A DNA stretch of 43,733 bases from Ignavibacteriota bacterium (GTDB lineage: Bacteria; Bacteroidota; Ignavibacteria; UBA10030). Both the position numbers and the translations under genes were made by a program. Below, one piece after another: positions 5,039-28,961 of this stretch. Below the pieces are notes generated by a model. It was not told the origin of the DNA, searched no databases, and was given only the letters and a program-made list of their open reading frames with translations. The stretch's first letter is position 1. Every line of letters starts with the position of its first letter. The stretch spans positions 1-43,733 of the forward strand of contig PMML01000099.1 of NCBI GenBank assembly GCA_003162695.1. Direction: 5' to 3'.

Positions 5039-5060
5039 CGTTCACATTGAAATGTGAACG
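5039..5060. promoter_or_regulatory. Perfect 22-bp palindrome, possible operator
   Basis: CGTTCACATT and AATGTGAACG are perfect inverted repeats separated by GA. The site lies in the 365-bp gap between two divergent genes (starts at 4834 and 5200). Its right arm overlaps the end of the dispersed 100-bp element at 5048-5147. A dimeric repressor site or a small RNA hairpin are both possible. The rest of the gap (4835-5038 and 5148-5199) shows only a weak minus-strand promoter candidate, TTGACA near 4993-4998 with N17 to TAACTT, and the ribosome site AAGAGGAGG before 5200. Confidence 0.45.
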
Positions 5061-5147
5061 AAAATTAATGAGTGTGAATATAAGTCGCGAATCCATTCCA
5101 TCAATAAGTATGAATTCCCGCAGAACCGACTTTTCGTCCATGTCTCT
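5048..5147 (+). repeat. Dispersed 100-bp element with terminal inverted repeats, copy 1
   Basis: This stretch aligns with 28822-28922. Both copies share GTCCA(T/C)GTCTCT at the right end, the neighbouring GAACCGACTTTTC, TTCCCGC(A/G)G, TCGCGAATCC and an ATGAGT block. They also share the left end, TGAAATGTGAAC here against AGAGACGTGGAC there. The left end here has drifted from a perfect inverted match to the right end. It ends 52 bp before the mutase start codon. No coding frame is shared by the two copies. Confidence 0.6.
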
Positions 5148-5199
5148 TGCTTCGCTTTTTCCTATTATGTAAATTGGAATTATAAAGAGGAGGTTACTC

Positions 5200-28764: not shown

Positions 28765-28821
28765 GCACATAGTTTAAAATAGAAACGGTTCGCCTTCGAT
28801 CCGGAGATGCAGACCGGCACG

Positions 28822-28922
28822 AGAGACGTGGACAAGAACTCATGAGTTAAAAATAGTTATCGCGAATCCGTCTTAGAATGAGATACAAATTCCCGCGGAA
28901 CCGACTTTTCGTCCACGTCTCT
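28822..28922 (+). repeat. Dispersed 100-bp element with terminal inverted repeats, copy 2
   Basis: The ends AGAGACGTGGAC (28822-28833) and GTCCACGTCTCT (28911-28922) are a perfect 12-bp inverted repeat. Inside lie the palindrome AACTCATGAGTT, TCGCGAATCC and TTCCCGCGGAACCGAC. The interior and both ends align with 5048-5147. An alternative fold pairs TCTTAGA (28871) with TCTAAGA (28919) and AATCCG (28865) with CGGATT followed by T's (28939). It ends 39 bp before the rpmB -35 box. Confidence 0.65.
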
Positions 28923-28961
28923 AAGAATGTCCTTCATTCGGATTTTTTGTCTCTTCTTCTC

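Follow-up and report, generated by a model that had tools for sequence, protein, structure and literature searches.

RUP and Correia (nemis) elements are non-coding sequences of about 105–160 bp with terminal inverted repeats (TIRs) that duplicate TA, lie between genes and reach many copies, and their mobility is attributed to IS630-type transposases. The IS630/Tc1-mariner superfamily is strict for TA duplication. The MITEPsy1 element of Pseudomonas syringae is 100 nt long and has 18-nt TIRs, a CTAG or YTAA target and no ORF (PMC3189936). This element is IS5-like, is attributed to the IS5-family transposase of ISPsy2 and has been trapped while transposing, with 99-nt relatives present in other Gammaproteobacteria (PMC3189936). 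Within the IS5 family, members of the IS427 group possess TIRs of 13–18 bp and generate a 2-bp duplication (PMC3281130, Table 2).

Here, we analyze a stretch of 43,733 nucleotides from an Ignavibacteriota genome (contig PMML01000099.1; hereafter the window) in which 2 short sequences are almost certainly copies of a protein-less MITE of about 99 bp, presumably moved by a transposase supplied in trans. MITEPsy1 is the closest described analogue of this element, with approximately the same size, TIRs of comparable length, a CTAG-type target and no ORF. However, it differs in its TIR (GGAAGGTCTGAAAAAGCC), in duplicating 4 rather than 2 bp, in the phyla that carry it and in having a named parent IS. 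RUP and Correia (nemis) resemble the element in being short, non-coding, intergenic, multicopy and bounded by TIRs, but their sequences and hosts differ. The IS427 group matches it in TIR length and in the 2-bp duplication, while IS427-group elements are 830–865 bp long and include a transposase gene, and the carriers yielded none with the TIRs of the MITE. Lastly, the TIR of ISPsy19, also of the IS5 family (GAGGGTGTAGACAAAAT; PMC3189936), resembles that of the MITE (GAGACGTGGACGAAAAG) at its start and inner A run when compared by eye only, and this IS differs in having a 3-nt duplication and a CHHD target (PMC3189936). The features of the window are as follows:

28823..28921, plus strand: MITE copy 2, 99 bp, 95% identity to the genome consensus; left end GAGACGTGGACAAGAAC, right end ACTTTTCGTCCACGTCTC
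28822..28833, plus strand: left inverted end of copy 2, a perfect 12-bp match to 28911–28922; sequences AGAGACGTGGAC / GTCCACGTCTCT
28911..28922, minus strand: right inverted end of copy 2, pairing with 28822–28833
28820..28822: left target flank C-GA of copy 2, with its right counterpart TA-A at 28922–28924; a decayed 2-bp duplication
about 5049..5146, plus strand: MITE copy 1, older, 75% identity to the consensus; the right half GAATTCCCGCAGAACCGACTTTTCGTCCATGTCTC is best conserved
5047..5048: left TT of the target duplication of copy 1
5147..5148: right TT of the target duplication of copy 1, followed by G

An earlier note on this DNA, made from the letters alone, had reported that 2 copies of about 100 bp align over their whole length, and this is real: they share 72 identical positions and score 103, compared with a mean of 16.8 (sd 7.5, max 47) for 2,000 dinucleotide shuffles. 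The perfect 12-bp inverted ends it described for copy 2 are also confirmed. Copy 2 sits between tsaD (minus strand) and rpmB (plus strand; ribosomal protein L28), and copy 1 between an unnamed 954-codon ORF (minus strand) and a gene for a glmM-like phosphosugar mutase (plus strand). The note placed both copies 5' of plus-strand genes, which holds for rpmB and the glmM-like gene, but both intergenic regions are divergent, with minus-strand genes on the opposite side.

The window has 2 copies, but the element is not "present twice" in the genome, as the note had it. Specifically, a nucleotide search of the assembly returns about a dozen full-length and several partial copies, and a search with a profile built from these returns about 30. 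Their identity to the consensus ranges from 58 to 96%, and 15 of 29 are exactly 99 bp long. ORF calls around each copy place almost all of them between genes of any orientation—i.e. with tandem, divergent, or convergent neighbors—and a comparison of the flanks of different copies finds no sequence in common. With some 30 scattered copies, mixed gene contexts and unshared flanks, the sequence reads as an old, partly recent mobile repeat and not as a leader. In one copy (L035, contig C54), a 520-codon frame starts inside the element, which may thus supply the start region of a gene.

Relatives of the element are found elsewhere in the class. A 20-base end pattern searched against 84,980 species genomes, a collection that possibly lacks the source genome, matches only the Ignavibacteriales genome NC_groundwater_1718 and 2 MAGs labeled "Bacteroidetes", WY2.bin60 and FK_Sedi_B_Bin.45; in the 2 MAGs, the copies are exactly 99 bp and set in CTA-[element]-TAG. 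A two-ended pattern, scanned over a limited length range that may have missed longer or shorter relatives, is present in 7 of 391 genomes of the class. Closer reading reveals about 16 distinct copies in G054 and further ones in G046 and G322, at least 6 in WY2.bin60, and a probable 99-bp copy in G028, a member of the same family as the source genome. Homologous elements of 98–100 bp with the same ends (GAGACGTGGACGA...TCGTCCACGTCTC) thus extend to other orders of the class and to families besides that of the source genome, and outside the source family, all elements have this length apart from one 151-bp variant. This variant, in FK_Sedi (L146:1501-1651, L144), combines the same ends with a core of CACAGAG/CTCTGTG-type repeats. 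In G013, a member of the source family, the same ends surround other cores in elements of 120–122 and 173 bp (L102, L115, L117, L119, and L120), which bear a GATGGCAAAGCCATGCCTTCGGC motif at one end, so that a single set of TIRs serves several MITE families. The element was not found in the plasmids searched, nor among 70 loci of viral contigs with a 16-bp end.

Insertion leaves a clear mark in these genomes. The element lies inside C-NN-G, and in 32 of 59 copies the NN on one side matches the NN on the other, compared with a mean of 9.9 and a maximum of 19 in shuffles; the 32 include 23 of the 30 copies outside the source genome. Duplications of 3–6 bp are not enriched in the 59 copies. A flanking C precedes the element in 48 of 59 and a flanking G follows it in 47 of 59. 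TA is the commonest duplicated dinucleotide (13/32) and CTAG the commonest site, with TT, AA, GA, CA, TC, and TG making up the other 19. Several copies of the source genome, including the one at 28823, have mismatched 2-bp flanks. As such, the earlier view that no target-site duplication is visible is correct for that copy (CGA/TAA), but not for the copy at 5048 (TT/TT), and the 2-bp duplication is clear family-wide.

The note had also proposed looking for empty sites in relatives, and these exist for 3 insertions of G046. When the flanks of the elements at L197, L174, and L178 are joined, they can be aligned to G041, a congener of G046, with no element between them. For example, L197 reads ACC-TA-[element]-TA-GCC in G046, and the empty site in G041 reads ACC-AA-GCC. 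The empty site of L174 (TTCCC-AA-GCTGGAGG) lies in a paralogous locus of G041, and the NN copies in G046 differ (AC/TA). L178 shows only that G041 lacks the element there, since its intergenic alignment has gaps. In G054, the element of L206 splits a palindrome (GCGACGA|GAGGCTCGTCGC) with GA duplicated, and an intact palindrome, CGACGAGGCTCGTCG, stands about 40 bp from the interrupted copy. For WY2.bin60 L143, no clean empty site is readable, but in relatives the element is missing from the ends of the orthologous genes. Two elements of G054 (L177 and L206) occupy C-GA-G sites within GC-rich palindromes that resemble hairpins of terminators or repeats.

Among 36 class-wide copies, conservation covers 16 bp at the left end (GAGACGTGGACGAGAA) and 18 bp at the right end (ACTTTTCGTCCACGTCTC) but not the stretch between them. 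The TIRs of the 98–100-bp elements measure 13–16 bp, and the 2 ends can be told apart by base 14, which is G on the left and A on the right in 34 of 36 copies. Between families, cores share 40–57% identity in a gapless register. For instance, cores of the source genome and WY2.bin60 match at 28–37 of 63 in-register positions without a gap (z 3.5–6.0), compared with 35–38% in the best shifted register; some G054 and G046 cores also match those of WY2.bin60 weakly (z about 4), with other pairs at background. These in-register matches indicate that at least the elements of the source genome, WY2.bin60 and some of those of G054 and G046 form one ancient family whose master copies remained free of indels. 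A length that stays at 98–100 bp across families despite the drift of the core merits specialist attention. One tentative explanation, which we consider possible though doubtful, is that the 99-bp spacing is selected, with transposase synapsis working only when the ends are about 99 bp apart and the core free to drift; alternatively, the fixed length may simply reflect common descent with few indels.

Altogether, the copies are homologous and dispersed, with conserved TIRs, a 2-bp duplication and empty sites. The element is well below about 600 bp, differs in presence at orthologous sites and has no coding capacity; the MITE guess of the earlier note is therefore supported by copy number, TIRs, target duplication and empty sites. 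In the mechanism we propose, both element ends (16–18 bp, GAGACGTGGACGARAA) would be bound by a trans-acting DDE transposase, most likely one of the IS427 type within the IS5 family, which would insert the element into C-NN-G, with CTAG preferred; fill-in of a 2-bp staggered cut would then duplicate NN. The assignment to the IS427 group follows from the fit of TIR length and 2-bp duplication, and makes an enzyme of this type the probable, if far from certain, source of mobility.

Searches for the parent IS covered close TIR matches in draft assemblies, with PF01609 (DDE_Tnp_1) as the transposase profile. The TIR-pair search found no autonomous IS with matching TIRs in the source genome, G013, WY2.bin60, FK_Sedi, G054, G046, or G322, and no retrieved locus has long-range TIR pairs with matching 2-bp flanks. 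DDE_Tnp_1 matches in six carrier genomes are bounded by other ends. An IS5-family IS of the source genome (L213:955-2187, contig C81; NF033581) has TTTAA flanks on both sides and ends GAGACCTCTGAAAAAC, whose resemblance to the MITE TIRs is limited to GAGAC and an approximate run of A. A 1303-bp TIR pair in G046 was rejected as the parent since it encloses a reading frame that is arcC-like from its translation, and is a chance pairing. Because draft assemblies lose multi-copy ISs, a missing parent is weak evidence; it bars naming the parent, but not its kind.

Other readings of the 2 window copies were weighed against the MITE. The earlier note had also suggested an RNA leader, a switch or a small RNA—i.e. 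a repeated sRNA, or a leader acting in cis on rpmB and glmM, that alternates between pairing of its two ends and a different hairpin. The region 28821–28923 does fold better than its shuffles (z −3.2 on the plus and −3.8 on the minus strand), but sequences with long TIRs fold well on both strands anyway, and the older copy of the window does not fold (z +0.67). The fold ending in CGGATT plus T's that the note described is a hairpin outside the element, is absent from the other copies and is not called as a terminator by the scan. Copies also occur in both orientations beside tandem, divergent, and convergent genes, and we rejected a cis-leader role on the basis of this gene context. The compensatory changes that the note proposed to look for are absent by alifold from both the source-genome and class-wide sets, the latter with 7 pairs in 36 copies that represent several families and orders. 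Across the class, 11 cells of the TIR helix show changes on both sides; 8 of these fall at a single pair (col 2/102), which marks the GG-ended subfamily. The next pair is mismatched in 13 cells, and the other variation is mostly one-armed or mismatched, a pattern that 2 homologous ends produce. With no compensatory pairing beyond the paired TIRs, no Rfam match at gathering or E-value thresholds, and no shared flanks, a structured RNA is hardly credible. The note further considered that the similarity might be confined to a protein-coding remnant. Compared with core-shuffled means, stop-free frames are in excess in 4 of 6 frames, none of them consistently; given that no single frame stays open across the subfamilies and that the copies are not independent, we read no coding signal and reject a coding remnant.

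Mobilization by an IS630/Tc1-mariner-type transposase, with TA duplicated at CTAG, agrees with the commonest dinucleotide and site, but most clean duplications (19 of 32) are not TA, which departs from the strict TA rule and makes this enzyme type unlikely. It is also conceivable that an old element has been domesticated as a regulatory or chromosome-organizing site, with a protein bound at its ends, its mobility past and the 99-bp spacing serving that protein. Ends far better preserved than the core and a length of 98–100 bp across families would suit such a site; however, a transposase would conserve the ends equally, empty sites and genome-specific insertion sites reveal movement, and the source-genome copies have decayed to as little as 58% identity, like dead MITEs. 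We thus regard domestication as very improbable, and under the MITE reading, the copies beside rpmB and glmM presumably serve no regulatory function themselves.

The MITE family is of a known kind and apparently unnamed: our literature searches returned no match for the TIR string and none for MITEs with Ignavibacteri*. It is spread over several orders of a class that has been little studied and to which the Ignavibacteriales belong, and its clear target rule and unusually fixed length provide a usable case for the minimal size of transposase-mobilized elements. In addition, it accounts for repeated intergenic sequences close to housekeeping genes that look "conserved" and might otherwise be taken for RNA leaders.

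Two further loci show elements in other settings. In G046, an arcC-like (carbamate kinase) reading frame ends within the 99-bp element at L178:1501-1599, and its final residues ETWTRSTIF and stop codon are encoded by the end of the element. WY2.bin60 (right flank of L157) and FK_Sedi (L142) share 99.9% identity over a 1.6-kb stretch that closes with the end of the same element, beyond which the 2 MAGs diverge; in WY2.bin60 an IS-like sequence (GGAGTCTGTCGGGGAACC...) begins exactly at the divergence point, with the other flank on a different contig.
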